Positions 5,640-25,523 of a stretch of 32,277 nt of DNA are shown piece after piece. Every line of letters begins with the position of its first letter. Within the stretch, counting starts at the first letter, position 1. A model generated the notes under the pieces. That model did no database searches. It worked only from the letters and a program-made list of their open reading frames with translations, and was not told where the DNA came from. Origin of the DNA: a virus; IMG/VR virus record IMGVR_UViG_3300025141_000445, positions 1-32,277 of that record, one strand, 5' to 3'. The position numbers were made by a program, and so were the translations under genes.

Positions 5640-7541
5640 TTAAGCTCCTCCGCCCATCGCTGCTGATGGCGGCGGCTGAGTTGCCATTGTTAAATCAACG
5701 GGGGTTAGACTGGCTCCCTGATTCATTGCTGCGCCTTCGGCCTCCGGGGAGATTGGTGCCATAGGCTGGGGTTGCGGAGCAAGCTCCGGCGGCGGCGAGA
5801 GAAGCGCCATTGCATCAGAGATAAATCTTCGGCACAACTCTAAACGATCGTCAGGTGCGCCTTCTGTCTTAGCCTTTAAATAGGCCGAGTTAATCGTCTT
5901 GATGGCTAAGGGTAAATTGGTAAATGGCTCGGGTGAAACATAAACCCCCTTATCAATCAAAAGCTCAATAATCATGTTGATGTCATTGCGCTCGGCGTTC
6001 TGGAGATCTTGAACCTCCTTGAGGTCGGGAAATTCTAAAAGCGATAGGCCGTCCTCGCGGCTCAAAAGACCTGCGGTCATCATCTCCTGAATGGTCTGTA
6101 ATCGGCCCGCAGGAGTAGCCGGAAGCATTGAGACGGGCCACATCTGCATGACGTACTTGTCCTCGTCTAAGTCAATGTCCTTCCAGTCAATCTGCTCAAC
6201 GAATGCCCGATTAAAAGAACGTACCTTGTAGGCGCCCTCGCGCATGTAGATGTCGCGGGCCATTTCAATCATGATCTTGGCAACATCCAGATACATCTTC
6301 TCGTGGTCCTTGGCAAAGCTCATAAATCGCTCGGACTCAATGTCGTGGTACTCACGCAAGGCCCGACCGGAGTCGATTCCAGAAGGCTTCTTCGCTGAAG
6401 CACTTAACTGGGAAATGCCCACAATCTCATAGGCCCTCTGATAGAGTCTGTCGAGATGGGTGAACATTTCAGGTCCAACTGCCTGAGCAGTTCTGTATTC
6501 AGGCATTGTCCCGGAATAGGTAATTATGCCGCCAATCTCGTTATTTAGATGGCTCTTAGAGACCTTTGACCCGGCCTCGATGAACACTTTAGGCACTGAA
6601 ACGAGGTCCATAGCCACGCGAATTGTGTTTAATAGCCTATTTATCTGTACCTGTAATCCGGTGAGCTGCTCGGCTATTCCTTGAGCAAAATAACCCAAAG
6701 AGCGATTACTCCAGTCTAACTTAACAAATGGGAAGTATGGTTTTTCATACTCTTCATCAGATAAAACCACATTGTCTATGGTGATAATATGACGCCCGTC
6801 CCCGCTGCCCTCTGCGCTGGGAAGATGCCACGCCTCAACAACTGCGACTTGATCTACAGCCTTGGCTAAATCATAACCCTGATTGAGAGTTTCCTCCCAA
6901 TCCTCATCAAGTGCTGCTTGCCGGATATACTTCTCCTTGTCGGGGAACTGCGCCACCAAAACTTCTCTGGCCACAACCTTTCTCTGGAAAAGCTGGCGAG
7001 GGGAATTAAAGAGTGCTTCCCTGTCATCAACCAATATCTCTTCCGGGAATACCCGCTCGCATTTAACCTTACCGTCCTCCTCGAACACCTTCATAAATCC
7101 GGTTCCAAAGATACACGCATCCCGGGCTACGGCATCACCCTCTTGATAAACATTCGTGGCGTAGAAGAGTCCTTGAACGAATTGATTAAGCTTCTTGGCC
7201 TTAAGCTGCATAGAGTAATCCCCACCAGAGGTGAGGAAAGTACATCGAGGGCGATTCTTAATAATCTTAGAGACTATAGTAGAGATCATTGAGTGTACTA
7301 TATTCAGTGTAACCTTGTTTGCCGACTCGCCCGGTGCCGATGTGGGTACGCGGGAATACCACCCACCACTTAATCCTATGAGTGGAGAGTTTCCATAGAG
7401 GCGTAGATTACGCAGGTTTCCCTGCGTCCTGTAAGACTGTGCCTCTCGAATGAAATTAACCGTATCAAATATTACTGAAAAGACGCGCTTTTTAGACGCC
7501 TTCCACCAAAATGCGTCTGGGTCTGCCGTATACTTTGCCAT
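5640..7541 (-). CDS. Portal protein
   Basis: The 633-aa product matches phage portals by size, position and composition. It has an N-terminal helical region, then NIVHSMISTIVSKIIKNRPRCTFLTSGGDYSMQLKAKKLNQFVQG. A central wing/stem region contains FGTGFMKVFEEDGKVKCERVFPEEILVDDREA, a typical portal pattern (G-x-G-x-x-K-V, then P-x-E-x-x-V-D). It then has LTGLQVQINRLLNTIRVAMDLVSVPKVFIEAGS and a Pro/Ala/Met-rich tail (about 585-633). It would form the dodecameric DNA channel at one capsid vertex, working with TerL. The start codon overlaps the previous gene's stop by one base (TAATG), so the genes are probably translationally coupled. Confidence 0.9.
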   Translation of the reverse strand: MAKYTADPDAFWWKASKKRVFSVIFDTVNFIREAQSYRTQGNLRNLRLYGNSPLIGLSGGWYSRVPTSAPGESANKVTLNIVHSMISTIVSKIIKNRPRCTFLTSGGDYSMQLKAKKLNQFVQGLFYATNVYQEGDAVARDACIFGTGFMKVFEEDGKVKCERVFPEEILVDDREALFNSPRQLFQRKVVAREVLVAQFPDKEKYIRQAALDEDWEETLNQGYDLAKAVDQVAVVEAWHLPSAEGSGDGRHIITIDNVVLSDEEYEKPYFPFVKLDWSNRSLGYFAQGIAEQLTGLQVQINRLLNTIRVAMDLVSVPKVFIEAGSKVSKSHLNNEIGGIITYSGTMPEYRTAQAVGPEMFTHLDRLYQRAYEIVGISQLSASAKKPSGIDSGRALREYHDIESERFMSFAKDHEKMYLDVAKIMIEMARDIYMREGAYKVRSFNRAFVEQIDWKDIDLDEDKYVMQMWPVSMLPATPAGRLQTIQEMMTAGLLSREDGLSLLEFPDLKEVQDLQNAERNDINMIIELLIDKGVYVSPEPFTNLPLAIKTINSAYLKAKTEGAPDDRLELCRRFISDAMALLSPPPELAPQPQPMAPISPEAEGAAMNQGASLTPVDLTMATQPPPSAAMGGGA

Positions 7542-7984
7542 TACTTATTCTTTCTCAAAGATTTAGGAATCTTTGGTTTTGCTTTTTTGGATGTAACAAT
7601 GCCTACAATCTCATCGGCTCGTTTTCTCCTTGCCTTGATTCTTGCAGTCGAGTGTTTGACGGTGCCTCTCAGAAAAAGCCTCATGTCTTCCTTTAATTGC
7701 ATCCGCTTCCTGTGGTACTCATCCGCCTTCTCGTTGGCCGTTATAGGTCTTCTTATGGACTTCGGAGTAGCCGCCCGATCTTTTCTTTTGCGGGCTTGCT
7801 TTAGATCGTCGGACATCATCTTGTCGCGTTTTCTCTCCGCGTTGTCCTCCGCCTGCGCCGCTAGTTGATCCCAAAGACCAACCATAAGCTTTCCGGTTTT
7901 TCTGCTCTTTTTTGCCGTTTTAGATAATGCGAGCATTTTCTTTCCGTATCCGCTGCCGCCGGTTCTACCTGTTGTCTTTGCCAT
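7541..7984 (-). CDS. Small very basic protein with MAKTTGRTGGS tag (147 aa)
   Basis: Rich in K and R throughout (for example MLALSKTAKKSRKTGK, QARKRKDRAATPKSIRRP, KARRKRADEIVGIVTSKKAK) with no membrane segment. The first 11 residues, MAKTTGRTGGS, are nearly identical to the starts of two other basic proteins in this window (7984-8283 and 25000-25236), although the rest of the sequences differ. It lies between portal and TerL genes and is joined to both sides by one-base TAATG overlaps. Composition suggests nucleic acid binding, perhaps as an internal head protein; that is inference. No family recognised. Confidence 0.75.
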   Translation of the reverse strand: MAKTTGRTGGSGYGKKMLALSKTAKKSRKTGKLMVGLWDQLAAQAEDNAERKRDKMMSDDLKQARKRKDRAATPKSIRRPITANEKADEYHRKRMQLKEDMRLFLRGTVKHSTARIKARRKRADEIVGIVTSKKAKPKIPKSLRKNK

Positions 7985-8283
7985 TACTTCACCTTCTTCT
8001 TGGGGGATTTAAACTTAGACTTCTGCCTTTTTTTCAGGGCATCAATTCTTTTATAGTCGGGCTTAGACTTATTTTGCTCATACCTTAGTGTCGGGCCGAT
8101 AGCCTTAGCGGCAATCTTGGAAACGGGCCTAGATGATTTGGCCGGAGGGTATTCAAAAAATAGCACACTCGTTGCGTGTCTAACTGCTGCTCTCGCCTTT
8201 TGCTTTGGCTTCTTCTCTAGCTTCTTATAAAGCGGTTTCTTTTTCCTGCTACTACCGCCGGTTCCACCTGTTGTCTTTGCCAT
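7984..8283 (-). CDS. Small very basic protein with MAKTTGGTGGS tag (99 aa)
   Basis: Starts MAKTTGGTGGSSRKKK and ends KSKFKSPKKKVK; about a third of the residues are K or R. The first 29 bases of the gene match the start of the neighbouring 147-aa gene except for one base, while the bodies differ, pointing to a duplicated and diverged gene or a conserved leader. The ATG at 8281-8283 has GGAG at minus-strand spacing about 6. A role in DNA condensation or in the virion is plausible from composition and its place between terminase and portal, but there is no direct proof. Confidence 0.75.
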   Translation of the reverse strand: MAKTTGGTGGSSRKKKPLYKKLEKKPKQKARAAVRHATSVLFFEYPPAKSSRPVSKIAAKAIGPTLRYEQNKSKPDYKRIDALKKRQKSKFKSPKKKVK

Positions 8284-8292
8284 CTAATTCTC

Positions 8293-8496
8293 CTATTCCG
8301 CCGAGTAATATAGCAAGTCATCCTCGGACATCTTTTTTGGTTCTCCGACTATTAAATCATCAAGATCGTCATGTCGAATCATTTTCTCTGGTAAGAATTT
8401 AACCTTCACATCAAAACCGTCTCGAGTAAATTCAAACTCGCCAACCCCGCAAGCCTTCATCATGTCTACAAATTGTTTTAGCTCATTTGGGTTCAT
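8293..8496 (-). CDS. 67-aa acidic protein resembling a BCCP N-terminal segment
   Basis: The chosen start is the ATG at 8494-8496, overlapping the TerL stop as ATGA with GGAG eight bases upstream; a longer reading to 8520 lies in TerL and has no better site. The first 34 residues, beginning MNPNELKQFVDMMKACGVGE and continuing FEFTRDGFDVKVKF, have the helix-then-two-strands pattern seen at the N-terminus of biotin carboxyl carrier proteins (x-x-x-L-K-x-F-V-x-x-M-x-x-x-G-V-x-E-x-E). I have seen similar short proteins beside phage terminases. No lysine-containing biotinyl domain is present. Function unknown. Confidence 0.7.
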   Translation of the reverse strand: MNPNELKQFVDMMKACGVGEFEFTRDGFDVKVKFLPEKMIRHDDLDDLIVGEPKKMSEDDLLYYSAE

Positions 8497-9974
8497 TGTA
8501 AGTTCTCCGTTTCCCACCAATCGTCGGTGTCTTCTTCCTGCTCAAGTCTTTGTAATTCATCTTCTTCCATCTTCTCACACTCGTCATCGAACCACTGGAG
8601 AGTCCCGTATTTTGGCGCTCTGATCAATTCTTCACTACAATAGTGTCTTGATTCACGCCAAGCATAAAGAAAGGCATCAGACAAATGGTTCTCACAACGT
8701 TCGCTTTCCTTCTGGCGTTTTTCATCCCACTGCAAGAGCCTCCACTCGTCTTCCAGACCGCTGCCGCGAGGAAGCTTAATGAAACCGGAGGCGAGATCAG
8801 AGTTAAGAAGCTCAATGTAGGAGAACTTGTCGTATTTGCTTGCGGCGGTGATGGGAAGTTGGTAGCGGATACGAAACTCCTCCGCAATGCTCTTGCCAAG
8901 GCCGCCCGTGTCGACAACGATTTTGATAAATTCGTAAATATTCGTCAGCTCACGGATATGCTGCGCGATTTCTGTAGGTATCATATGACTGGCCTTAAAT
9001 TCGTCGACGAGATAGAGAAGGGGAAGGTCTCTGCTGAATGCTACGACAGTGAATGCAGTTGCATCCTCGAAACCCAAGTCGACACCAAGAATATACTCAA
9101 AATCGAAATCCTCAACGGGGAGGGTTTCGTAAATATTCTTGTCCTCGAACATTCTGTAGACAAGAGAATCTGCGCTACGTACCCACTGGCCCCGCCACTC
9201 CCGCATAAAGACCGGATGATCGCTATTCCACCCGCGCCTCGCCATACGTTGATCTAACCACTCCTTCGCGTGGGGGATATGGGGATTCTCCATAATGGTC
9301 CAAGCATGTGCAGAATAGTCGCTTTTCTCATCCATTGTGGACCGATAAAAGATTCCTGAACAAGAAGCGTTAGGCGTACCTATCATGCATAGGGTCCCGT
9401 CGCAGTCGACCAAGGTAGGCTCTAGGGCTTCTTCGACCAGCTCATCCATATGTCGGCCAAAAGACGCACACTCATCAAGCACAACGAGACGAAAAGCAGA
9501 TCCTCTAAGTTTATCGACATCAGCTTGGTCATTAGCTCCTGTTAAATAGATTACGCTCTCATTTGGGAAGGTGCAAAAAAGCTCTGAGTTATTGAAGTGT
9601 AGACCGAGAGAATATTGCTGATTGAGCTGTTTGATCTTTGGCCACATAACCCTCTTCGCATTCGAGCGAGTAAGAGCAATATAGGCAGCCTCAGAGCCGG
9701 GGTTTTCCACCATTTCCTTTAATAAATATACTGCGGCTGAATGTGTTTTCCCGGCTCGTCTTGAGCAAAGTGCTGTCTTGAGCTTGGATGGGTCTGAAAT
9801 AAAATCAATCTGCTCCTGAAAACAATCCTTGTAGAATTGAGTAGACCTCTCCGTATGCGCTATGCTTTTCTTGATGGGCGGCAGCTCACCAAAGCGCTTG
9901 GTATATTCCTTTAAGACCGTCCGGGCCTTCAGGACGTTCATGTTGCTAGTTGTCTTTTTCGTACTTTTCGACAT
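8493..9974 (-). CDS. terL: Terminase large subunit
   Basis: A 493-aa packaging motor. The ATPase domain has Walker A CSRRAGKTH (residues 70-78), Walker B LVVLDECA (163-170, D167/E168) and coupling motif GTPN (199-202). The C-terminal RNase H-like nuclease domain has its three acidic metal ligands at GVDLG (D299), VVDTGG (D355) and HLSDA (D433). All key residues are present, so it should be active in DNA translocation and in cutting concatemers. The upstream region of the ATG has only a weak binding site; a start at Met12 (MNVLKARTV) is possible. It is followed by the 67-aa gene with an ATGA overlap. Confidence 0.95.
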   Translation of the reverse strand: MSKSTKKTTSNMNVLKARTVLKEYTKRFGELPPIKKSIAHTERSTQFYKDCFQEQIDFISDPSKLKTALCSRRAGKTHSAAVYLLKEMVENPGSEAAYIALTRSNAKRVMWPKIKQLNQQYSLGLHFNNSELFCTFPNESVIYLTGANDQADVDKLRGSAFRLVVLDECASFGRHMDELVEEALEPTLVDCDGTLCMIGTPNASCSGIFYRSTMDEKSDYSAHAWTIMENPHIPHAKEWLDQRMARRGWNSDHPVFMREWRGQWVRSADSLVYRMFEDKNIYETLPVEDFDFEYILGVDLGFEDATAFTVVAFSRDLPLLYLVDEFKASHMIPTEIAQHIRELTNIYEFIKIVVDTGGLGKSIAEEFRIRYQLPITAASKYDKFSYIELLNSDLASGFIKLPRGSGLEDEWRLLQWDEKRQKESERCENHLSDAFLYAWRESRHYCSEELIRAPKYGTLQWFDDECEKMEEDELQRLEQEEDTDDWWETENLQ

Positions 9975-10027
9975 CTTTTGAGTTCTTTACAGGTATATAA
10001 ACTTGTCCATTTTCCCAATTAAAAAAC

Positions 10028-10336
10028 CTATCCCAAGGAAGCCTTGCCCTTCTTGCCGGCTCCCTTACTTCCCTTATCCGCTGTAGTCTCCTTCTTCGCA
10101 TTTGGGTCCTCCCCCCCAAACTCGACTATAGCTGGTTCGTTCACTGTTTCAAAAAATGAGACATTTGATAAAGGCGCAACCGTGGTCACGTTTTGGCAGT
10201 GAATAAATATATAGCACTCGTGTAGGGATATGTAGGATATGGGTGGATTAGAGCAGTTGAGCCTTATAAATGTTTCTGGTCTTTTCGACGATATGGCTAC
10301 AGGCTCAAAGAACCTAACAGTTTTCAAACTAATCAT
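10028..10336 (-). CDS. Hypothetical protein with Lys/Gly-rich tail (102 aa)
   Basis: The first 70 residues look beta-rich (VRFFEPVAISSKRPETFIRLN, SYISLHECYIFIHC, NVSFFETV). The last 30 are low-complexity and basic (NAKKETTADKGSKGAGKKGKASLG), probably disordered. The start overlaps the stop of the upstream GNAT-like gene as ATGA. About 53 bases separate it from TerL, with no feature I can call. No family recognised. Confidence 0.65.
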   Translation of the reverse strand: MISLKTVRFFEPVAISSKRPETFIRLNCSNPPISYISLHECYIFIHCQNVTTVAPLSNVSFFETVNEPAIVEFGGEDPNAKKETTADKGSKGAGKKGKASLG

Positions 10337-10803
10337 TGGCTAACCTCGATTTGTATATTGTGTAAAATGTAGGGATTATACATCATTGCCTTCCCCTCGA
10401 TATATACAGGCTTAGAACAGAAGAAGTGCGACATTACCACTTCTTTATCTGGAGTCCAGCCTAATTCTTTGAGCAGCATTTTAAAGATACCATAGCGGCG
10501 AAACCTCCCTTTAACGAAGGCATAGTGTAGTAGCGGCCATTCTTGGGCTTCTCCACAGATAAATCCGTACATGATGCTAATGTCTGCTGGGTCGCAGGCA
10601 ATATAGACATCCGATTTTTGAACTAGGTGGCTAATAATCCTTCGATGGTTGGAAAAGAAGGTTGCCTTTGGTATCCCTGCGGCGAATGCTGAGTAGGAAT
10701 GTTGCCTAAGCCACGAGCTATAGACAAATGGCATGTCTGGCTGGATGGCTTCCCGTATGCGTACAGGCAGGTCTTCCTTCATGTTTTTGGCAGCGCTACT
10801 CAT
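10333..10803 (-). CDS. GNAT-like acetyltransferase-fold protein (156 aa)
   Basis: Order of elements fits the GNAT fold: strand VRIREAIQPDMPFVYSSWLRQ, helix region around residues 45-60, strand VYIACDPADISIMYGFICGE, strand LLHYAFVKGRFRRYGIFKMLLKELGW. The FVKGRFRRYGIFKMLL segment has the position and V-x-x-x-x-R-x-x-G-I/A pattern of the acetyl-CoA loop (motif A). Proteins of this type are frequent in phage head operons near the terminase; substrate unknown. The start overlaps the upstream gene by 8 bases, so coupled translation is likely. Confidence 0.6.
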   Translation of the reverse strand: MSSAAKNMKEDLPVRIREAIQPDMPFVYSSWLRQHSYSAFAAGIPKATFFSNHRRIISHLVQKSDVYIACDPADISIMYGFICGEAQEWPLLHYAFVKGRFRRYGIFKMLLKELGWTPDKEVVMSHFFCSKPVYIEGKAMMYNPYILHNIQIEVSQ

Positions 10804-11002
10804 CGCCCACCAACATTCGTAAAAGTCGCTTGACGCGCTTTTTCAGTTCACTGTATATATTATATATACGGTAACGGTTCAGAGATACTACTTTCACATC
10901 AGACCTCCTAAACATGAATATGGCCCTCGCCGGCAAGGAAGCTCTTAGCTTCCGCGCAGGAAGTGGCTTTAGCCTCTTCCGAAGTTCTTTATCACCAATC
11001 AT
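10796..11002 (-). CDS. Small basic protein (68 aa)
   Basis: I place the start at the ATG 11000-11002 (MIGDKELRKRLKPLPARKLR) because GGGAG lies 6 bases upstream; the longer reading to 11047 lies inside the metallopeptidase gene without a site. The protein is rich in R, K and L with helices at both ends (ELRKRLKPL and YSELKKRVKRLLRMLVGDE). It overlaps its neighbours by 11 bases upstream and 8 bases downstream. No family recognised; nucleic acid binding is possible from charge. Confidence 0.6.
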   Translation of the reverse strand: MIGDKELRKRLKPLPARKLRASLPARAIFMFRRSDVKVVSLNRYRIYNIYSELKKRVKRLLRMLVGDE

Positions 11003-11408
11003 TAAGATCTCCCGCAGGGGCGCAGTGAGGGGTAGGAGCCCAGACAAGTTCCCATAACTCCTTGTTTAACTTATTAAATAATATAATCGCCTTGGTTGCG
11101 CTTTCGGTTATGTGCTCGTTATTCAATTTAATGCTTCCATCCTCAATGGATAGTTGTCCGTATCCTACGGATTCCCAGAGGATGTGCCAGATTTCATGAA
11201 GGAAACTCTGTCTGGCACATTCCTCATTCAGGGTTCCATCGATTGTCAACGTATGGGTCTCGAAATCAACATGAGAAAAACACTTGTGGTTTTCGTCATC
11301 CATTACTGGGTGGTCGATTACGATATCAAATACGCACCAACCAGCATTCACGCACATGCCGGTCTTTCTCAATCTCTGGAAAAAATTATCCAACCTCTTC
11401 CTCGTCAC
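10992..11408 (-). CDS. HExxH zinc metallopeptidase-like protein
   Basis: A 138-aa protein with the zinc-binding motif HEIWH at residues 71-75 in a helix (SFLHEIWHILWE). It follows a beta-region (HVDFETHTLTIDGTL) and precedes a helical C-terminus (EHITESATKAIILFNKLNKELWELV). The first acidic residue after the motif that could be the third ligand is E79, or E95/E98 within the later helix. Small phage proteins of this arrangement resemble the ImmA/IrrE-like and other minimal zincin families. In a head operon it could cleave a structural protein, or it could act on host proteins; neither is shown. It overlaps both neighbouring genes (23 and 11 bases), so translation is coupled. Confidence 0.7.
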   Translation of the reverse strand: MTRKRLDNFFQRLRKTGMCVNAGWCVFDIVIDHPVMDDENHKCFSHVDFETHTLTIDGTLNEECARQSFLHEIWHILWESVGYGQLSIEDGSIKLNNEHITESATKAIILFNKLNKELWELVWAPTPHCAPAGDLNDW

Positions 11409-11802
11409 TCTTCATCATCACGAGTGCCTTCCTCACTTCCCCTCGCAGCTCCTTGTCACTTAAGCGGTCCACGCGGGTCCTCTTCTCCATATCCTCCTCC
11501 AAAGTGGCGAGGGTCTTGAGGAGATTCCCCATACGCATGAAGTGCTTAGAGTCATCAGGTGCTAGGGTGGAAAGTGTTCCTGAAGTCTTTCCAATAAGCT
11601 TAGAGATTTCGAGCTGGCAAACCGACATAGCATCTGCAACGAGGGCCTGCGTATTAGGCAGTACCCGCATTGCTGACATATGGCGCCTAGTGGCCTTCTC
11701 AAAGCCGTCATGCTCTTTTCGCTCCTGCCTCCTCGAATCATATTTAGGGATGGCGGGACGGTCTTCAAGCGGCACTAGCGTGTTCTGAGTCGTCTTTTTC
11801 AT
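11386..11802 (-). CDS. Helical protein, possible terminase small subunit (138 aa)
   Basis: The preferred start is the ATG at 11800-11802 (MKKTTQNTLVPLEDRP), inside the end of the upstream coiled-coil gene; AAAGG precedes it closely. A longer reading to 11856 begins in the other gene and looks unnatural. The body is helical: a basic N-terminal part (YDSRRQERKEHDGFEKATRRH), a central helix pair, and a C-terminal LSDKELRGEVRKALVMMKSDEEEVG with an acidic tail. Position at the head of the packaging operon and this organisation fit a small terminase, but I see no clear helix-turn-helix. Alternative: unknown regulator. Confidence 0.55.
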   Translation of the reverse strand: MKKTTQNTLVPLEDRPAIPKYDSRRQERKEHDGFEKATRRHMSAMRVLPNTQALVADAMSVCQLEISKLIGKTSGTLSTLAPDDSKHFMRMGNLLKTLATLEEDMEKRTRVDRLSDKELRGEVRKALVMMKSDEEEVG

Positions 11803-11989
11803 TACCTTTAACCGGACCTTCAACGGGCTGTAGCTGAGAGACCACCATAAGACCAATCTCTAAACCATCTATCTGGGTCTTAATCTGAGTCTTTTGGTTG
11901 AGCAAGTTCATAAGCTGTTGTTCTACATGACCTAATTGGGTACACAGCTCAGTGTACTTCTTTCTTATTTGTTCCTGATTCTCTGACAT
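11765..11989 (-). CDS. Coiled-coil protein (74 aa), first gene of the leftward operon
   Basis: Residues 5-50 form a strong heptad-type helix (QEQIRKKYTELCTQLGHVEQ, then LMNLLNQKTQIKTQIDGLE), followed by an acidic tail. The ATG at 11987-11989 has an excellent site, AAAGGAG, at spacing 7. It is the first gene after the A+T-rich control region, so it should be the promoter-proximal gene of the leftward head transcript. No family recognised. Confidence 0.7.
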   Translation of the reverse strand: MSENQEQIRKKYTELCTQLGHVEQQLMNLLNQKTQIKTQIDGLEIGLMVVSQLQPVEGPVKGNEKDDSEHASAA

Positions 11990-12160
11990 GAAATTCTCCT
12001 TTATGGGTAACTAGATAAAAGACCCCCTCCTTTTGAAGAGGGCCGTAAAAAATATTAGTGACTGGTATGTATCCGTATTCAAGAGTTAGAACCCCCCCAA
12101 ACCCGTTTCCAACTTTTTTTAAATCCAGATTTATCAGAATATACTGAGTATAATTGCGTG

Positions 12161-12207
12161 ATTACATTGAATATATTCCTGATATTCTTAAGTATATTGA
12201 ATGTAAT
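12161..12207. repeat. Inverted repeat, likely operator or cruciform
   Basis: ATTACATTGAATATA (12161-12175) and TATATTGAATGTAAT (12193-12207) are reverse complements at 14 of 15 positions, separated by 17 bases. The half-site ATTGAATGTA recurs as a direct copy at 12308-12317. This is the size and layout of a binding site for a dimeric regulator with a second half-site 100 bases away. Confidence 0.6.
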
Positions 12208-12416
12208 ATAGTGAAGCGAGTGTATCGGATATAGTATTGCGGGAATAGTATTCAGACGATAGGTGTCTGAGTATATTATAGTTGGGATAAGATAGTTACT
12301 GTACTGAATTGAATGTAGTAAAGCCACGATATGATACTTGATATAGTCTATTCTAAATATCATTTCGCCACTCTCGCTTTACAACTCGCTCTTGAATTGT
12401 CTAAATCAGCCTATGT

Positions 12417-12460
12417 GCCATATGTCGCCATACAATACACTACCATACGTTGCCATACGT
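12417..12460 (+). repeat. Four phased CCATA repeats (iterons)
   Basis: CCATATG, CCATACA, CCATACG and CCATACG begin at 12418, 12428, 12443 and 12453. Spacing is 10, 15 and 10 bases, so two pairs each one helical turn apart lie 25 bases apart. Three of the four are preceded by G. They lie just upstream of a candidate rightward promoter and of the first early gene, fitting an activator or repressor array, or origin iterons. Confidence 0.5.
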
Positions 12461-12500
12461 ACTTATTGCTTGTCAATTCTATTTTTTTGGTGCCGATAAC

Positions 12501-12528: not shown

Positions 12529-12572
12529 CACGATGTGGCCAATTAAGGCCCACAAAAACAAGGATGAAAACA

Positions 12573-18463: not shown

Positions 18464-19039
18464 ATGTGTCAAAATATTGACGAGGTAGACGCTCTGGTGG
18501 AGGCTGCGATGGCCAAGCTGCTACGAGCCCAAAAACTAATTAAAGAAAAGAAAAGTAAGATAAAAGAAAAAAAAGAATGTTTGAAGGAAAAGAGTAATAT
18601 AAATCAGGGTACATTCAGTACTATATATAATATAATATCTCATTATCAGAAATATCACCCCAAGGCAATGCGTAGCGTCAAAAAAAATTCAAGCATCTAC
18701 AGAAAGATCGAAACTCGCCTCCTTGAAGGCTATACCTATGAGGAAATATGCCGAGCCATTGACGGTCAGCACATGAGCCCGTTCCACCTCGGAGATAATA
18801 GACATAAGACCGAATATCTACAGCTAGAGCTTGTGGTTAGGTCTGGAGAGAAGCTCGATATGTTCATAGCGATTTTTGACAGACCGAAAACGTCTACCTT
18901 AAAACCAAAGACTGCCCGTACTCTCACCGCGGCGCAGGATTGGCTCTCGGATGACGAAGACCTGCCAGATATGCAGCGCGACCAAGGAAGTTCATCTGTT
19001 TCACCGGAACCCCTCGCGGCGGGATGGGTGGCGAAGTGA
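18464..19039 (+). CDS. Replication initiator-like protein
   Basis: A 191-aa protein. Residues 20-45 are almost all K and E (LIKEKKSKIKEKKECLKEKS). Residues 58-140 form a domain with pattern YHPKAMRSVKKNSS, then KIETRLLEGYTYEEICRAID, then SPFHLGDNRHKTEYLQLELV. This resembles the C-terminal domain of phage replisome-organiser proteins (I-x-x-R-L-x-E-G-Y-x-x-E-x-x-x-A-I-D, then S-P-F-H). It likely binds the origin, which may lie inside this gene because 18541-18660 is very A+T-rich, as in lambda O. Start site AAAGAGGTAACA. Its last 89 bases are read in another frame by the HNH gene. Confidence 0.6.
   Translation: MCQNIDEVDALVEAAMAKLLRAQKLIKEKKSKIKEKKECLKEKSNINQGTFSTIYNIISHYQKYHPKAMRSVKKNSSIYRKIETRLLEGYTYEEICRAIDGQHMSPFHLGDNRHKTEYLQLELVVRSGEKLDMFIAIFDRPKTSTLKPKTARTLTAAQDWLSDDEDLPDMQRDQGSSSVSPEPLAAGWVAK
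18537..18657. other. A+T-rich tract, candidate replication origin
   Basis: G and C make up 12 of 60 bases at 18541-18600 and 16 of 60 at 18601-18660. The first part is a purine tract (repeats of AAAGAAAAG on the plus strand). The second is an alternating A/T stretch (CTATATATAATATAATATCT at 18631-18650... within 18621-18640). It lies inside the initiator-like gene, the location used by lambda-type origins. No clear iterons were found beside it. Confidence 0.4.
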
Positions 19040-19388
19040 GTGCGCTGAGTGTACCCGAAGATCTCGCCGAAAACTTTGGAGGAAAAACAAAGCAAAGAAA
19101 CGAGAACAGGTACGGGAGTGGCGCCGAAAAAACCCAGAGAAGTCCGCAGCGCAAAGGGCCGTCGCCTTCGCCGTTAAGTTTGGCTTCCTTGTGCGACCAA
19201 ACCGATGTGAGTTATGTGGGGAAAAGTGCCGACCAGACGGACATCATGACTCATACGAAAGAAAAGACTTCCTCAGCGTACGTTGGGTGTGCAGGGGATG
19301 TCACAACAGAATACACGCTGAGAAGCGTAAGAATGGCGCTCACAAGGCGCGAACCACAAGGAGGACAGTAGGAGATGAGTTACTATGA
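18951..19388 (+). CDS. HNH-type zinc protein (145 aa)
   Basis: Two metal-binding parts. The N-terminal C5xxC8 with C31xxC34 spans the zinc ribbon TCQICSATKEVHLFHRNPSRR. The C-terminal C86xxC89, H98-H99, C114xxC117-H118 and H122 (RCELCG, GHHDSY, WVCRGCHNRIH) have the HNH-nuclease layout seen in phage proteins, with HH as the catalytic part. The middle is a basic helix (RRSRRKLWRKNKAKKREQVR). Likely a DNA endonuclease; target unknown. It starts inside the initiator gene and shares 89 bases with it in another frame, with AGGA about 11 bases upstream of the ATG. Confidence 0.75.
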   Translation: MTKTCQICSATKEVHLFHRNPSRRDGWRSECAECTRRSRRKLWRKNKAKKREQVREWRRKNPEKSAAQRAVAFAVKFGFLVRPNRCELCGEKCRPDGHHDSYERKDFLSVRWVCRGCHNRIHAEKRKNGAHKARTTRRTVGDELL

Positions 19389-19575
19389 AAAGATCGCCAC
19401 AGAGCCACATGAGGCTCCTGAGGGGTATTTGTACGATATCCCTATTAATTCTATCGGGTTACGTGACGTGCTTGCGGTTATCTATCTCGTCAAGGGTCCT
19501 GAGGGCACACTGACTAATCCGGGTGGCGCATATGATTGGGCGGACCACCTGTTACATTATCGTGAGGAGGGATGA
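19375..19575 (+). CDS. Hypothetical protein (66 aa)
   Basis: Begins MSYYEKIATEPHEAPEGYLY and continues DIPINSIGLRDVLAVIYLVK and NPGGAYDWADHLLHYREEG. Mixed strand and helix, mildly acidic, no transmembrane run. GTAGGAG lies immediately upstream of its ATG. It starts 14 bases inside the HNH gene and its stop overlaps the next start as ATGA, making a coupled string. No family recognised. Confidence 0.65.
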   Translation: MSYYEKIATEPHEAPEGYLYDIPINSIGLRDVLAVIYLVKGPEGTLTNPGGAYDWADHLLHYREEG

Positions 19576-19823
19576 GTATAAAGATGACGCAGCGCGGTAT
19601 GGATGCGTACCACAAGTACCGACCATTTTACGGGAGGGACACCGCTACCATTTTGATGGCTCTAGTAGACAACAAGTCAGCGATGAGTTTACCGGAGCTT
19701 GCTTCTTATTTAAGCATGACCAATTCGAGGGTAGCCAAGGGCCTAAGCGTCCTTGCTGAGGGTGAATTGGTTAAGGAGATTTTTCATAACGAGGAGTCAT
19801 TATATAAATTTACAGGGGGGTAA
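19572..19823 (+). CDS. Winged-helix DNA-binding protein (83 aa)
   Basis: The segment TILMALVDNKSAMSLPELAS followed by YLSMTNSRVAKGLSVLAEGE and LVKEIFHNEESLYKFTGG has the helix-turn-helix plus wing order of MarR/ArsR-like regulators (recognition helix TNSRVAKGLSVL, wing LVKEIFHNEESLYKF). Small stand-alone winged-helix proteins in phage early operons usually regulate transcription. The control region at 12.0-12.5 kb holds dyads that could be its sites. GAGGAGG precedes its ATGA-overlapped start. Confidence 0.6.
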   Translation: MSIKMTQRGMDAYHKYRPFYGRDTATILMALVDNKSAMSLPELASYLSMTNSRVAKGLSVLAEGELVKEIFHNEESLYKFTGG

Positions 19824-19827
19824 CACA

Positions 19828-20520
19828 ATGACAAACAAGGACAAGCCACAATTTCTACAAATCTTAACTGGACTTTCAGACTTATATAACGCGGAGCTTT
19901 CTCGCGTATCCATAACCCTTTTCTGGGAGGCGCTGAAAACTCACCGCATAGACCTTATCTCAGTTGCGGCCTCGGAGCATGTTAAGCATTCCAAATGGAT
20001 GCCGAAGCCTTCCGAGTTCCTCGACATCCTAACCAAATCGGAGATGAGCCCTGAAGAGCGAGCAATTCTCGCGTGGGGTTGTGTCTCCCGGGCGGCGAAG
20101 AGTATCGGGGGTTACTCTTGCGTAGACTTTGACGATCCTATCATCAACGCGACAATTCGCAATCAGGGCGGGTGGTCTAGAATCTGTTCTCAGCCCGCCG
20201 AGCATTTTGAGTCATTTATTCGTAGACAATTTATTGCCGACTATGTGGTTATGTACGGCGCCAAGCTGAGTCCTGATGCACTGCTCCCTTTGCAGGGTAC
20301 ATTTGACAAGGATAACCCCAGAGAAATAGAAACCGGGTTACCCCCGGGGCCCGGCCATAAGCTTTTGGCTGAGGTTGCAGAAAGACAAAGGCTACTTGCT
20401 CAAGAGTGCAAGGGTAGCCCAGAGGAAAATTTGGAGAAGGTACGTGGCATCATTAGAGAAACTTTGGATCCACCAGCAAAGGCTGCGGGGCCAGCAACAG
20501 CGGAGGAAGGCCCGCCTTAA
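19828..20520 (+). CDS. DUF6475-like replication protein, possible helicase loader
   Basis: A 230-aa protein. Its N-terminal part (FLQILTGLSDLYNAELSRVS, TLFWEALKTHRIDLISVAAS, HSKWMPKPSEFLDIL) resembles small helicase-loader domains with the K-W-M-P-K-P motif common in such proteins. Its middle (FDDPIINATIRNQGGWSRIC then HFESFIRRQFIADY) matches the F-D-D-P-x-x-x-x-x-I-R-x-x-G-G-W pattern of DUF6475 phage proteins. The C-terminus is Pro/Ala/Glu-rich and probably disordered. The gene sits in the replication block; no helicase is seen here, so it may act on the host's. The ATG at 19828 follows GGGGGGTAACACA. Confidence 0.6.
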   Translation: MTNKDKPQFLQILTGLSDLYNAELSRVSITLFWEALKTHRIDLISVAASEHVKHSKWMPKPSEFLDILTKSEMSPEERAILAWGCVSRAAKSIGGYSCVDFDDPIINATIRNQGGWSRICSQPAEHFESFIRRQFIADYVVMYGAKLSPDALLPLQGTFDKDNPREIETGLPPGPGHKLLAEVAERQRLLAQECKGSPEENLEKVRGIIRETLDPPAKAAGPATAEEGPP

Positions 20521-20542
20521 AAATCTTCTTAGGGACAATACC

Positions 20543-20713
20543 GTGTTGAGTCGCAAGCTTAAGTCTATATATCGAGAGATTTGTAAACTCGAGGTGCGCC
20601 TAGAATTGGATTCTGAAGAGCTAGAGGAGTTACAATATGAGATCAACAACGCACAAGAAGAGTGGAGAGAACATGAGGCCGCGCTACGAAACGAAAAAGG
20701 ACCTCCAGAATGA
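20543..20713 (+). CDS. Coiled-coil protein with GTG start (56 aa)
   Basis: I place the start at GTG 20543 (TTG at 20546 is an alternative) because AGGGA lies 7 bases before it. The only ATG in frame is at 20375, which would overlap the previous gene by 146 bases. The product is one long acidic-basic helix (SRKLKSIYREICKLEVRLEL, then EELEELQYEINNAQEEWREH) ending GPPE. The last 41 bases overlap the next gene. No family recognised. Confidence 0.55.
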   Translation: MLSRKLKSIYREICKLEVRLELDSEELEELQYEINNAQEEWREHEAALRNEKGPPE

Positions 20714-21092
20714 AAAACTTTTCACGCAGAAGTACACCCGCCAATATGATTTCTATAAACTACCCATATCCTATCGCTTGGACTTCGCCGTGTGCCGAAA
20801 GGGTACCAAGGAGATCACTGGATGGGTCGAGTTTAAAAGACGCCACCACAAGTTTGGAACCTACCCGACGGCTCTCTTCAGTCTAGGTAAAATTATCTAT
20901 GGCCTAACAATGGCTGACACCACAAGCATACCATTTTTCATCGCAGTGATGTGGGATGACGACCTGCGGTGGATGCGCGTTGACATGAAGGACGCAACAA
21001 TACTATGGGGGTCGCGCACAAAAAACACTAGGGACCGAGATGACATTGAGCCCGCGGCCCATTTCCCCATAGATAAATTTGTGAGATTCTAA
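20673..21092 (+). CDS. PD-(D/E)XK nuclease-like protein (139 aa)
   Basis: Core motif YRLDFAV (D37), then GWVEFKRR (E53, K55) spaced as in PD-(D/E)XK nucleases, then helix PTALFSLGKIIYGLTMADTT and strand IPFFIAVMWDDDLRWMRV, a typical alpha-beta core. I chose ATG 20673 because GGAGAGAAC precedes it. The catalytic set D-E-K is intact. It could process Holliday junctions or ends made in recombination; a VRR-NUC-like family is another option. The next gene, a lipoprotein, begins in its stop codon (TAATG). Confidence 0.65.
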   Translation: MRPRYETKKDLQNEKLFTQKYTRQYDFYKLPISYRLDFAVCRKGTKEITGWVEFKRRHHKFGTYPTALFSLGKIIYGLTMADTTSIPFFIAVMWDDDLRWMRVDMKDATILWGSRTKNTRDRDDIEPAAHFPIDKFVRF

Positions 21093-21259
21093 TGAAAAGA
21101 TTTTTAGTGGTCGTAGTCCTCGTGATGCTCGTCCGGTTCTTTGTCCTCGGATGTGCTCGCCAAATGATATACGATGGAAAAACATATTATAACCCCGAAC
21201 TAGATTGCGTAAGCGAGCTGAAAGGAAATTCCGATGGGTGGTGCGATGAGCAGAAATAA
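21092..21259 (+). CDS. Small lipoprotein (55 aa)
   Basis: Overlooked easily because it is under 60 codons. It begins MKRFLVVVVLVMLVRFFVLG, then C21: two positive residues, a 17-residue hydrophobic core and a lipobox V-L-G-C. The mature part is about 35 residues, ARQMIYDGKTYYNPELDCVS followed by ELKGNSDGWCDEQK, with two cysteines that could form a disulfide in the periplasm. The start overlaps the upstream stop by one base. The L at -2 of the lipobox is less usual. Phage-encoded lipoproteins often block superinfection or act in lysis; neither is shown here. Confidence 0.6.
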   Translation: MKRFLVVVVLVMLVRFFVLGCARQMIYDGKTYYNPELDCVSELKGNSDGWCDEQK

Positions 21260-21698
21260 AGGTCATAACTATGAGAGAGAACTCGTTCAATTATTTAGGA
21301 AACATTTCCCTGACCTCACCGTTGAGAGGGGTCTTGGGCAAACACGCCACGGCAGCGACTGCCCCGATGTGGAGATGCCACACTTCTGGATTGAAGCGAA
21401 GCGCGGGAAGAAGACCAACATAAAGCGTGCTCTGAGGCAGGCTTTCATCGCCAGAGATGTCCGGAAAGAGGATGACTACCGAACGCCCATAGCTATTTGT
21501 CGTGACGATCGTGAAGAAGCAACCGCAACCCTGATGCTCTCTGACCTTATGCCAATGCTTGTGATGTGGGTTGAACAGGAAGAGAAGAGTAGGGGAGATA
21601 TTCGCCGTTCAATGGCACTGTCTGTAGCTAAAGATGAGTGGCTCGACGCACCCAAGAACTCATATACCAAAGAAGAGTGGGTGGATTTATATGAATAA
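21234..21698 (+). CDS. Hjc-like PD-(D/E)XK Holliday-junction resolvase
   Basis: A 154-aa protein with the core KGHNYERELVQLFRKHFP (E14/E16), then RHGSDCPDV (D45), then HFWIEAKRGKK (E54, K56). This E...PD...E-x-K arrangement with a basic EAKRGKK is that of archaeal-type and phage resolvases. It would resolve branched DNA before packaging. AAAGGA precedes ATG 21234; ATG 21246 (MSRNKGHN) is an alternative start. It lies at the end of the rightward recombination block. Confidence 0.7.
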   Translation: MGGAMSRNKGHNYERELVQLFRKHFPDLTVERGLGQTRHGSDCPDVEMPHFWIEAKRGKKTNIKRALRQAFIARDVRKEDDYRTPIAICRDDREEATATLMLSDLMPMLVMWVEQEEKSRGDIRRSMALSVAKDEWLDAPKNSYTKEEWVDLYE

Positions 21699-21759
21699 GG
21701 GGAAATACGATCCTCGTAACAAGCTCAATGATCTAACATCTACAGGTCGATTAATTTAA
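21691..21759 (+). pseudogene. 22-codon remnant resembling the start of a phage DNA methylase or ParB-like protein
   Basis: The frame MNKGKYDPRNKLNDLTSTGR ends LI then stop. The Y-D-P-x-N-K-L-N-D-L-T start is one I associate with phage DNA-modification/ParB-like proteins, whose next residues are usually G-K-E-W. The ATG overlaps the resolvase stop (ATGAATAA) and has GGTGG upstream, as expected of a translated downstream gene. After residue 16 the match ends and no long frame follows. I read it as a gene cut by deletion, or a real 22-aa peptide; recall only, no search made. Confidence 0.35.
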
Positions 21760-21780
21760 TTGTTGCTGAGGAAAGAATTT

Positions 21781-21829
21781 TGGCCGCTCAAGGTAAAACT
21801 GGATGAGAGTAAAAATCCTTAAGCGGCCA
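21781..21829. terminator. Long hairpin at the convergent junction
   Basis: TGGCCGCTCAAGG (21781-21793) and CCTTAAGCGGCCA (21817-21829) pair at 12 of 13 positions around a 23-base loop. It lies between the end of the rightward early block and the end of the leftward lysis/virion block, where a two-way terminator is expected. No good T-run follows on either strand, so it may work with Rho or as an RNA stop for exonucleases. The loop side ends at an orphan AGAGGTAACA site (21829-21838) that has no gene behind it. Confidence 0.5.
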
Positions 21830-21844
21830 GAGGTAACAAGTATC

Positions 21845-22711
21845 TTATACACCCTCTGATGAAATACCACAAGATGTGAGCATCTCTTTTATCTCCTCTT
21901 TCGTATAGTCCCTCATTTTCCCTCGCAATTTATCCCTCACTGCCTCCCTGAATTGCTCCATTCTCAGATATCCTCCCGGGCATTTCTTCATAGGATCTTT
22001 AGTGGCATCCGGAAGCTCCGTATGGCCCCAGATATCTATTGCTCCTAAATAAAGGCTGAGGAGGCAGCAGAGCTGATAGAGAGCACTTTTCTGGTAGGGT
22101 GTCGGGTGCCTATAATTAAAATCTCCACGTAGAGCTATCGCCAGAGATTTGCCATTCCACCGACGTGCGTGGGCACCCCCTTCATCCAAACAAAGTGCTT
22201 GTTCTGTCTTGTCAAAGTCGATGATGAAGTGGTACGGGTTCTCGCCGCCAGTCATCCCAATCTTGGGATGTGTCTGAAACCAGCGGCAAACGTGGAGGGC
22301 GAAGCTATGACTTTTATCTGTATGTGCATGTTCTGTTTGGCAATAGTGGCAATCATTGAGTCTGCAATCTAGGTCTGGCCCTATCCGGTGGACTACAATC
22401 TTTTCCGGGCACAATAGGGCCTTATAGCGCCCGTCATCCACAGTACGAATTTGATTGACAACGTGTAGGTCGTACAGATCCATCTGCTCCCCGTTAGGTA
22501 AAATAACCACAGGTAGGGGTGACCCGTCAAAAATCCCAGCGGATTCCTCCACTGGCGGCGTAACCTTTATCGGAGGCCCAAGCCTCTGCGGTAGCGGATA
22601 GGTTGTGTGCGATCCGGTGTATGTACCGGGCACCGACCAATAAGTGCATATGGCGGTAATCCACGAGTAGATCCATTCTACCACGCCTCTCAGGAAAAGC
22701 CTCCGCTTCAT
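21845..22711 (-). CDS. N-acetylmuramoyl-L-alanine amidase endolysin
   Basis: A 288-aa amidase_2/PGRP-type endolysin. Zinc ligands are likely H108 (IVVHRIG), H230 (IWGHTELP) and C244 (KKCPGG), with H-A-R-R-W-N and SLAIALRGDF between. The N-terminus (residues 1-27, MKRRLFLRGVVEWIYSWITA) is basic then hydrophobic, a possible signal-anchor. Unusual is an insertion DCRLNDCHYCQTEHAH (115-130) after the first zinc histidine, with three Cys and three His that could bind another zinc. It is encoded 21 bases after the holin gene; the ATG has a poor binding site, so its synthesis may be coupled or low. Confidence 0.85.
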   Translation of the reverse strand: MKRRLFLRGVVEWIYSWITAICTYWSVPGTYTGSHTTYPLPQRLGPPIKVTPPVEESAGIFDGSPLPVVILPNGEQMDLYDLHVVNQIRTVDDGRYKALLCPEKIVVHRIGPDLDCRLNDCHYCQTEHAHTDKSHSFALHVCRWFQTHPKIGMTGGENPYHFIIDFDKTEQALCLDEGGAHARRWNGKSLAIALRGDFNYRHPTPYQKSALYQLCCLLSLYLGAIDIWGHTELPDATKDPMKKCPGGYLRMEQFREAVRDKLRGKMRDYTKEEIKEMLTSCGISSEGV

Positions 22712-22732
22712 CCAGCGCAGCCACGATCTGGG

Positions 22733-23011
22733 TCAGGACTTTTTTGTTTTCTTGGTTCCTTCGTGCAGGATAGTGAGTGCTTGTGCATCAACCGCAAGCT
22801 GCTGTGCCTTAAGCTTTGTGCGGCTTGCACCATACCCAAAAGACGCAAGACAAGTACCTGCGACCCCCAATATAGCAAGCGTGAGAGGACTCTCAACATA
22901 CCCACTATTTTGCACCACTTCTAGGATTGCCGCCAAAATCGGCAGCACTAAACTTGTAATGATGGCTACTTTCGCCAGCTTATGTTCTGAAGTATCTTTG
23001 CCGTCTTTCAT
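22733..23011 (-). CDS. Holin (two membrane segments)
   Basis: A 92-aa protein with two hydrophobic helices (about residues 15-35, KVAIITSLVLPILAAILEVV, and 43-63, LTLAILGVAGTCLASFGYGA). The short linker has two charges; the N-terminus is charged and the C-terminus carries helix and KKTKKS. This size and layout, directly upstream of an amidase gene, is that of a class II-type holin. Excellent site AAGGAG before ATG 23009-23011. It would permeabilise the inner membrane to start lysis. Confidence 0.75.
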   Translation of the reverse strand: MKDGKDTSEHKLAKVAIITSLVLPILAAILEVVQNSGYVESPLTLAILGVAGTCLASFGYGASRTKLKAQQLAVDAQALTILHEGTKKTKKS

Positions 23012-23020
23012 GTTTTCTCC

Positions 23021-23500
23021 TTATACACTGCCTACGTCTGTAACTATTATATTAAAGGCTGCTTGGATGGCGGCGGTTCCCGACCCTGTAAAGTGACATT
23101 GATAAATGTCTAGATGAGATACGGTGGCCGATGTGATATTATCGACTGTTGCCCACGAGGGCGCTACAGTGAGGCTGGCGGCGGCGGTCGTTACCGGGGT
23201 GGAATAGGCAATCGTAGCTGTATCACTCAGGCGTATTGCCAATTCTATTTTCCAATGTATCGCATTGTATGCATAAGGAGCAGCGGGTGTTAAGAGTCCA
23301 CTGCTTGCAATACTTACCATATTCATGTTTGGCGTTTCGAGAGTTCCAACGAATCCGGGTGGCGCACCAATAGAGAAGTTGCCCCTAGCCACAACCGCAC
23401 CGTTAGTGGGAGAAGATGGCGATAGTGAGGCCAGACTTACCGTCTTGACTACCATCTTCTTTTCATCGGACCGCAGAGTAAATGCGTATGGGGAGGCCAT
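23021..23500 (-). CDS. Hypothetical virion-like protein (159 aa)
   Basis: Rich in A, T, S, V and small residues with a beta-look throughout (VKTVSLASLSPSSPTNGAVV, HWKIELAIRLSDTATIAYST, and a C-terminal AAFNIIVTDVGSV). Such composition is frequent in phage structural proteins. It lies between holin and a large unknown gene in a leftward string with small gaps. No family recognised; soluble tail or fibre part suspected. Confidence 0.6.
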   Translation of the reverse strand: MASPYAFTLRSDEKKMVVKTVSLASLSPSSPTNGAVVARGNFSIGAPPGFVGTLETPNMNMVSIASSGLLTPAAPYAYNAIHWKIELAIRLSDTATIAYSTPVTTAAASLTVAPSWATVDNITSATVSHLDIYQCHFTGSGTAAIQAAFNIIVTDVGSV

Positions 23501-23506
23501 AATTAA

Positions 23507-24661
23507 TTATGCTTTCTTTAAGGTTATCGAGCCAATAATTTTATATTCACTACCATATCGGGCAATGTAGGGTAGCCATTCGGCCACTGTTCCAGCCGCC
23601 CCGGTCTGGGCAGCAGCCTCTATATATTTAAATGGCTCCAAAGGGGGGTTGCTCTCGTTAAACATATCTGTGTTGGGGGCATATCCAAATGGATTATGAA
23701 TACTTGTCGTGGGGGCTTGCATCTTAACATTCAGGAATCCTAAGTTATATATATCGTGAACATAGTTTACAACCGACATGACGGAGTTTTCTATGATGGA
23801 AAGTGGAGTCGGAATCATCGTACGCAATCTTTGGCCCACAGGAAAGTCGGCTGGTCCACCCCTAAAAAACTCAACCTCCCACCGGGAACAGGGTTCTGGG
23901 TCTAGCGCCGCAATAATTCTAAAGTAGGCACCCGGATCGCTGTTTTGAGGATCGTCATAGGTTCCGGAGGGATTTGTCCCTGCGGCTATGGCATGACCCC
24001 CGATGCTCGTGGCCTGTCCGGTAAATCGACACACCAGATTTCCAGTAGCATTGGCGTTGTTGTAGTAGCACCTCCGATCTGGGTTTGAACTCGGAAAGAC
24101 GTAATTATACTTATTTATCGGCAGTGTTGTCTCTAGGATATCCTCCCCACCTCCCCCCGTAGACCAATTATCTACTGCGGGCAAAACTATAGGGGTGGAT
24201 AAGTCAAACCAAGGCAATGGGGTGGTATCGTTTGGTACAATGAGATAATTATAAAATGGGTGAAGGTTCGCGGCCCAAGGCTTTTCGTCATACCCGCTTG
24301 GAATATAGGGTTGGAATACAGGGTTGGTTGGGCCAACTACCAACGACATATTGATGACATCTGAATATTTATGTATAGGAAATTGAAGAGTAAAGGAAAA
24401 AGGGTTTACCTTTTCCCTTATTACATTACCTGCGGCATCTGTGCCCAAGGTGTAATCCAGCATGTAGGTGTTGTCAAAGTCATACGAAGAATCTGCAATC
24501 ATCTTTTGAGGACCAACCCCACCCATAGAGAAGGGGTTTGTAGCCTGTATGCCGATGATCTCAAAATCGTCAGGGAGTTGCGGGCCTCGCTCTAAATTCG
24601 CCAACCCAAACGTATCTAAACGTAACGTGTTTCCACCAGACCTAAGTTTAAAAGATGGCAT
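23507..24661 (-). CDS. Hypothetical virion-like protein (384 aa)
   Basis: I place the start at ATG 24659-24661 (MPSFKLRSGGNTLRLDTFGL) because AAGGAG lies six bases upstream, rather than at 24682. The protein is rich in P, N, Y, G and D, with many aromatic residues and short strands (LHPFYNYLIVPNDTTPLPWF, YNYVFPSSNPDRRCYYNNAN). There is no membrane segment and little helix. This composition suits a virion surface or tail-spike-like part. Not recognised. Confidence 0.6.
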   Translation of the reverse strand: MPSFKLRSGGNTLRLDTFGLANLERGPQLPDDFEIIGIQATNPFSMGGVGPQKMIADSSYDFDNTYMLDYTLGTDAAGNVIREKVNPFSFTLQFPIHKYSDVINMSLVVGPTNPVFQPYIPSGYDEKPWAANLHPFYNYLIVPNDTTPLPWFDLSTPIVLPAVDNWSTGGGGEDILETTLPINKYNYVFPSSNPDRRCYYNNANATGNLVCRFTGQATSIGGHAIAAGTNPSGTYDDPQNSDPGAYFRIIAALDPEPCSRWEVEFFRGGPADFPVGQRLRTMIPTPLSIIENSVMSVVNYVHDIYNLGFLNVKMQAPTTSIHNPFGYAPNTDMFNESNPPLEPFKYIEAAAQTGAAGTVAEWLPYIARYGSEYKIIGSITLKKA

Positions 24662-24672
24662 CGCCTGCTCCT

Positions 24673-24990
24673 TTAAGTGCAAATCTCTTCAAAAACCCGT
24701 ACGCTGAAGCCCCGGAAGGTTTGAATGATTGTTCCACCCTCAGCGGTGTTGTCGAGCTGAATCTCCGCAGCGAACTTTCCCTCCTCGCTCATAAAGAGAG
24801 CAGGGGGATTACCGTAAGCCTTCCCCTGTGCCGCCTCCGCCGCTGTGGCCGAGCCCAGAACAAAGGAATCAGGGGTTGAAAAGTTTACGCAAAACGTCAC
24901 CACGAAGTCTCTTAAATCAAAGTTCTCCACCTCGATGATTACCGCAGGTGCGGTGTCATTTTTTACATACTCCAATACATAGCAACCCAT
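24673..24990 (-). CDS. Hypothetical protein (105 aa)
   Basis: Mixed strand pattern (GCYVLEYVKNDTAPAVIIEV, FDLRDFVVTFCVNF, IIQTFRGFSVRVFEEICT) with an Ala-rich centre. Four Cys are spread over the chain. The ATG at 24988-24990 has GGAG eight bases upstream. It lies between the basic-protein pair and the 384-aa protein and may be a virion component. No family recognised. Confidence 0.6.
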   Translation of the reverse strand: MGCYVLEYVKNDTAPAVIIEVENFDLRDFVVTFCVNFSTPDSFVLGSATAAEAAQGKAYGNPPALFMSEEGKFAAEIQLDNTAEGGTIIQTFRGFSVRVFEEICT

Positions 24991-24999
24991 TGTAATCTC

Positions 25000-25236
25000 C
25001 TAAGCGTTTTTCCACTTCGACGCATTTCTTGCGAAGTTCTTTTTCTTCCTTAAACTTGCTGAGTCTCCGGGCTTATCCTTTAATTTATTTTTAGGTATAT
25101 TCTTTCCCTTGGGCGTTTTAAGGGCCGCTCTTAAAGAGCCTCTGTTTTCTGGCTTGATGAAAATCTTGGCTTTCTTCTTTGTCTTCTTTGTTTTCTTTTT
25201 ACCAGACCCACCAGTTCTCCCTGTTGTTCTTGCCAT
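25000..25236 (-). CDS. Small very basic protein with MARTTGRTGGS tag (78 aa)
   Basis: Starts MARTTGRTGGSGKKKTKKTK, then a second basic part (NRGSLRAALKTPKGKNIPKN) and a C-terminal KKNFARNASKWKNA. The N-terminal 11 residues match those of the basic proteins at 7541-7984 and 7984-8283, over 17 kb away. About 40 percent of residues are K or R. It starts in the stop of the next basic gene (TAATG). Likely nucleic acid binding; a virion component is possible. No family recognised. Confidence 0.7.
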   Translation of the reverse strand: MARTTGRTGGSGKKKTKKTKKKAKIFIKPENRGSLRAALKTPKGKNIPKNKLKDKPGDSASLRKKKNFARNASKWKNA

Positions 25237-25523
25237 TACTTTTTCCTTTTCCTTGTTGGTGAGCTTGGTTTGGCTCGAGGGTTATGTGGCCCTTGTAGTT
25301 TTTTAATTACTTTCTTCTTAAGGCTCTTTTTTGCTTCTTTTATATCAGATGAGCTTGGCCTACTACCACCACTCCTCGACAATGCCAACTGTAAGGCCGA
25401 TCTAGATTCTAGTCGGTCCTTAAGGCTGCCCCTGCTCTTGCCGAGCGCCTTGAATAGATATTTAGCATCCCTATCGCTGGGCCTCGACCCCTGTGATTTC
25501 TTCACCTTCTTTTTCTTCGCCAT
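25236..25523 (-). CDS. Small very basic protein (95 aa)
   Basis: Very basic with several S-R-P and R-S-G-S segments (KKKKVKKSQGSRPSDRDAKY, SRGSLKDRLESRSALQLALS, KKSLKKKVIKKLQG) and a C-terminal SPTRKRKK. It lacks the MA-x-T-T-G tag but is paired with the tagged 78-aa gene just as the two basic genes near the portal are paired. One-base overlaps (TAATG) join it to both neighbours. No family recognised; nucleic acid binding is inferred from charge. Confidence 0.65.
   Translation of the reverse strand: MAKKKKVKKSQGSRPSDRDAKYLFKALGKSRGSLKDRLESRSALQLALSRSGGSRPSSSDIKEAKKSLKKKVIKKLQGPHNPRAKPSSPTRKRKK

Follow-up and report, generated by a model that had tools for sequence, protein, structure and literature searches.

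A conserved N-terminal leader on exchangeable small basic proteins of an uncultured SU10-like podovirus: a candidate signal for sorting cargo into the virion

The internal proteins of T4 and the other T-even phages are diverse and basic, and share only a conserved capsid-targeting sequence, or CTS (PMC3012670, PMC9026906). In IPI, IPII and IPIII of T4 the CTS amounts to about ten N-terminal residues on several small basic proteins whose bodies differ, and the content of internal protein genes varies among related phages (PMC9026906, PMC3012670). For DarB of phage P1, an N-terminal stretch longer than 9 and no longer than 30 residues is enough to target the capsid (PMC9024508); the Dar proteins have no common N-terminal consensus, whereas the leader considered here is common to all its proteins. 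Phage SU10 stores several proteins, gp20-24, in its head, and no shared leader is reported for its ejection proteins (PMC9509320). The crAss phage protein gp45 belongs to the virion cargo and is attached to the portal by its residues 425-552 (PMC10172136). Within the literature, a shared N-terminal leader on exchangeable cargo was found described only for T4-like phages. To our knowledge, the route by which cargo proteins of short-tailed phages reach the procapsid is poorly known.

The window, by which we mean the whole stretch of 32,277 bases analyzed here (IMG/VR virus record IMGVR_UViG_3300025141_000445), comes from an uncultured, short-tailed phage and carries on its minus strand three leader-bearing genes for small basic proteins. 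Gene 1 (7541-7984) encodes a 147-aa protein of pI 11.1 in which the leader MAKTTGRTGGS (7952-7984) precedes a helical body; gene 2 (7984-8283) encodes a 99-aa protein of pI 10.9 with the leader MAKTTGGTGGS (8251-8283) ahead of its body; and gene 3 (25000-25236) encodes a 78-aa protein of pI 11.8 in which MARTTGRTGGS (25204-25236) is followed by a domain of the phrog_25798 / crAss gp45 type. These coordinates, lengths and starts (MA[KR]TTG[RG]TGGS) all agree with the initial annotation; codons 2-11 read AKTTGRTGGS, AKTTGGTGGS and ARTTGRTGGS, respectively, and the net charge of every leader protein lies between +24 and +30. The proposal that the bodies are unrelated likewise holds, in that blastp among the three gave no match at E<=1e-4, as does the reported single difference in 29 bases between the two adjacent tags; in codons 2-11, 3/30 bases differ within the adjacent pair, and the far copy departs from either member at 9/30. 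A fourth protein grouped with these in the initial annotation (95 aa, pI 11.6; 25236-25523, minus strand) is indeed basic but lacks the leader. When the first 12 residues after the Met were compared for all candidate ORF starts within each genome, tag pairs showed 8-10 identities of 12, against 6-7 for the best non-homologous ORF pair of the window and of five further long genomes. As with the T4-type CTS, several basic proteins of a single phage, otherwise dissimilar, have a short N-terminal peptide in common. The portal gene also starts ATGGCAAAG and so has its first three codons in common with the leader, whose specific part is just TTGxTGGS. In two models of low confidence (pLDDT about 46-52) the leader is predicted to be unstructured, and the AlphaFold predictions for the 147- and 99-aa proteins (pTM 0.23-0.24) are too poor for fold searches.

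The setting is that of an SU10/P22-like podovirus, with the same type of portal, adaptor and major capsid protein (Pfam: P22_portal 5.9e-11, SU10_portal 6.7e-10, SU10_adaptor 7e-15, SU10_MCP 9.8e-6). The P22/SU10-type portal gene (5640-7541) lies directly downstream of the slot that holds genes 1 and 2, a 75-aa gene (8293-8520) forms the upstream bound of that slot, and the large terminase subunit (8493-9974) and SU10-type major capsid protein (3311-4591) are encoded on the same minus strand. A presumed scaffold occupies 4632-5618. Compared with named phages, the portal found no match and the terminase only matches of about 26%. The window's large candidate ejection proteins (619 and 1124 aa) are without the leader. 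At 10333-10803 is encoded a protein that is kept upstream of the terminase in the relatives reaching that far and has no Pfam match at E<=0.1; on our own reading it is reminiscent of a GNAT acetyltransferase.

The initial annotation had placed the leader at two distant loci, a description that gives way once gene order in the near-complete relative G005 (35.9 kb) is considered. There, a single unbroken minus-strand late run extends from the terminase to the lysis genes, in the order terminase, 75-aa gene, 97-aa leader gene, portal, presumed scaffold, capsid, adaptor, tail, large ejection-type proteins, 76-aa gene, a second variable slot of basic proteins, and lysis genes. The two leader loci of the window correspond to the portal slot and the second variable slot of G005, and thus belong to one late gene block. 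Counterparts of the 1182-1192-aa and 204-233-aa genes of relatives are absent from the window and would fall at its ends, so the window is probably incomplete.

Across the window and its IMG/VR relatives (86-88% portal identity, with L027 found through its terminase), the slot between the 75-aa gene and the portal holds no, one or two leader genes. Both are present in the window, only a 97-aa leader gene in L009, only a 147-aa leader gene in L010, and none in six relatives (L005, L006, L007, L008, L011 and L027, of which L007 and L008 are nearly the same phage). The gene 1 homologue of L010 is 91% identical and occupies the same slot; those of gene 2 are 93% (L009/G005) and 69% (L051/G016) identical. 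The leader is therefore kept in relatives while the cargo set varies, as among T-even phages, and the objection that it might be an artefact of recent duplication, with no conservation in related phages, is ruled out by its presence in these IMG/VR genomes. In empty slots taggagaatta(a/g) leads directly to the portal. In filled slots the leader gene takes over the portal's ribosome site while the portal keeps an overlapping TAATG: gene 2 uses the strong site AGGAG, which is the portal's own in cassette-free relatives, and the stop of gene 1 overlaps the portal ATG. ATGGCAAAG forms a direct repeat on both sides of the inserted cassette. Within 7956-8283 the two window leaders share GGT-[AG]GA at codons 6-7; both L009 and L010, whose bodies differ, have GGC-AAG there. 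This sharing across different bodies suggests, from the DNA comparison, exchange or conversion through the leader, and cassette shuffling was probably helped by recombination at the repeated start.

That the peptide itself is selected, as the initial annotation supposed, is supported by synonymous sites saturated without residue change, by occurrence at another genomic position, and by the loss and gain of whole genes. When the leader of the 97-aa protein of L009 is compared with that of the 93-aa protein of L051, 7/8 synonymous sites differ and 0/22 nonsynonymous sites do (pS 0.88, pN 0), as against pS 0.61 and pN 0.236 for the bodies of the same two proteins. The far copy, on the 78-aa protein, has diverged from the other leaders at pS 0.56-0.81, with K3R and position 7 as the only residue changes. 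In the 99-aa family, 10/10 leader columns are identical versus 51/80 in the body, a result that is moderate when taken alone (P=0.016, or P=0.039 with three sequences) and comes from few sequences. The residues kept are T4, T5, G6, T8, G9, G10 and S11, with K, R or G at position 7, a pattern of constant Thr, Gly and Ser around a variable position that would indicate a recognized motif rather than merely a basic arm. What is conserved in the leader is the peptide, not the DNA; this fits a virion address label without proving it. A role as a translation enhancer or at the RNA level is disfavored by the synonymous changes and by the GTG start in L051.

Beyond these genomes the leader is rare. Pattern scans for the peptide covered 2.9 million viral contigs and 84,980 genomes. 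When any start codon was allowed, 44 of the viral contigs matched, and the match is the N-terminus of a small basic ORF in three relatives only (L009, L010 and L051), which is the outcome of the search for N-terminal copies that the initial annotation had proposed. Seven bacterial or archaeal contigs among the 84,980 genomes match, none at the start of a small basic ORF. Matches outside the phage group were set aside as internal stretches rich in Gly, short frames lacking context or ORFs that are not basic, and that in L001 as one such chance match. A further copy belongs to the more distant relative L051 (IMGVR_UViG_3300045738_000559; terminase 68% identical), where a 93-aa homologue of the 99-aa protein bears a perfect leader, MAKTTGKTGGS, encoded GTG-GCA-AAG-ACA-ACA-GGA-AAA-ACG-GGG-GGT-AGC. 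The gene occupies another insertion point, upstream of the terminase, and is absent from that point in the near relatives of L051.

Among the bodies, only that of the 78-aa protein has known relatives outside the clade. Its residues 25-78 match phrog_25798 (PHROG E=2e-4) as well as proteins of crAss and N4-like Vibrio phages, and a profile built from crAss rows only picked out the window ORF from 4611 frames at E=1e-10 (the runner-up had 3.5), with the match covering the whole domain. In crAss phages the domain lies inside long proteins, and in one record it adjoins a stabilization protein near an RNA polymerase subunit gene. In crAss001 gp45 (cargo protein 1, 842 residues, portal-bound) it was located at 376-424, by a profile already containing crAss rows, and adjoins the portal-bound part 425-552, whereas in the window it is a stand-alone protein; the leader is absent from the crAss and Vibrio phage JSF3 proteins examined. 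In JSF3 the domain is a stand-alone 63-aa protein among many small ORFs, so that the domain alone is no virion marker. In the PDB, neither single-sequence nor non-crAss searches with the domain returned a match, and RNF4 matches in the PDB to the A3 profile were taken as spurious. The 147- and 99-aa proteins have no match in Pfam, PHROGs or named phages, and the 95-aa protein none in Pfam or PHROGs.

The second variable slot (22733-25753) lies between the 76-aa gene and a small membrane-type, holin-like gene. In the window it opens with the 95-aa gene and continues with genes of 78, 105, 391 and 159 aa, the last three without relatives in other genomes. Relatives open it with other basic proteins starting MAKKK, and G003 and G005 hold small basic proteins of 103/110, 52, 63/71 and 96/108 aa there. 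A recurrent small protein of the clade (L094:11397-11657; G003 6472-6762, L018) carries the motif GGSNVGKY...FAG..GGAPKGSYP...LAHNAPNP.GIKKKA, of which K-x-GGS-xx-GK loosely resembles the leader (KTGGSGYGKK), and has no match in named phages. In the distant relatives L095, L100 and L101 (G011, G015, G016), adjacent 118-142-aa proteins share MAGVxSxELAGISG; this pair was rejected as a second shared leader, since the proteins align over their whole length and are ordinary paralogues.

The reading we favor, at a probability of roughly 0.42, is that MA[KR]TTG[KRG]TGGS is a short linear motif that sorts variable basic cargo into the virion. The leader would be a short, disordered N-terminal motif, under selection at the peptide level, and would label a varying assortment of small, strongly basic late proteins. 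It would most likely dock them onto a head-assembly partner, be it scaffold, portal or capsid, and the docked proteins would enter the procapsid, travel with the DNA and be ejected into the host, much as T4 internal proteins do by way of the CTS. Cassettes would be gained and lost as host conditions change, much like the anti-restriction internal proteins in T-even phages. In favor of this sorting role are the position of the leader genes in the late head/tail block, the modular use of the leader, the slot dynamics, the status of gp45 as virion cargo and the T4 precedent; against it stand the six relatives without a leader gene at the portal slot and the stand-alone domain of JSF3. The likeness to T-even internal proteins is one of pattern, not membership: variable basic proteins with a common N-terminal peptide come close to the T4 case, as the initial annotation had it, but this phage is an SU10/P22-like podovirus with another leader sequence. 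The further suggestion that the tag is cut off in the head is unsupported, since no late-block protein matches a prohead protease in Pfam or PHROGs and none matches Peptidase_S78 (the Peptidase_S77 search had no positive control). The leader here is probably uncleaved.

Other accounts of the shared start must be set against this. A flexible DNA-binding arm on nucleoid-type proteins, condensing the genome or acting on the host chromosome in the infected cell with no sorting role, is unlikely overall: it would suit the charge of +24 to +30 in all the proteins, the disordered start rich in Gly and Lys, and the AT-hook-like GGSGRGKRP of L051, yet a generic basic arm is expected to keep its charge and let its spacers drift, whereas here Thr, Gly and Ser are invariant and position 7 may be K, R or G. 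Resemblances to histone tails or AT-hooks are not conserved, and the genes sit within the late block. The conservation pattern would be equally compatible with a linear motif for some other phage or host partner in the cell, such as a host polymerase, nuclease or chaperone, with no relation to packaging, but with the portal, terminase and late structural genes as neighbors we consider this improbable.

Very improbable, in our estimation, is that the shared start is mainly a recombination boundary, at which cassettes swap through the repeated DNA ATGGCAAAGACAACAGG..., with the peptide as a functionless passenger. Such a boundary would account for ATGGCAAAG being common to the leader genes and the portal as a direct repeat around the inserted genes, and for codons 6-7 being GGT-[AG]GA in the window pair and GGC-AAG in L009/L010 despite different bodies. 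However, the far and L051 copies have diverged at most synonymous sites and still keep the peptide, so what persists is not DNA identity; the cassettes may have been shuffled by recombination, but this leaves the survival of the peptide where DNA has diverged unexplained and is already weakened as an explanation. It is scarcely credible that the proteins are old paralogues that retained a common N-terminus as their bodies became unrecognizably different, without modular fusion. All are basic with the same start, but the 78-aa body is a member of a distinct domain family, present in crAss and N4-like phages, and the matching domain proteins examined are without the leader.

For this uncultured SU10-like clade, we suggest more tentatively that the leader is a cleavage-independent virion-sorting peptide, unrelated in sequence to that of T4, by which the phages may load exchangeable basic effector or DNA-condensing proteins into their heads. 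A conserved leader of ten residues on exchangeable bodies is a directly testable signal. It could help to tell which small orphan proteins are carried in virions, and might serve as a compact tag with which to load proteins into the heads of podoviruses.
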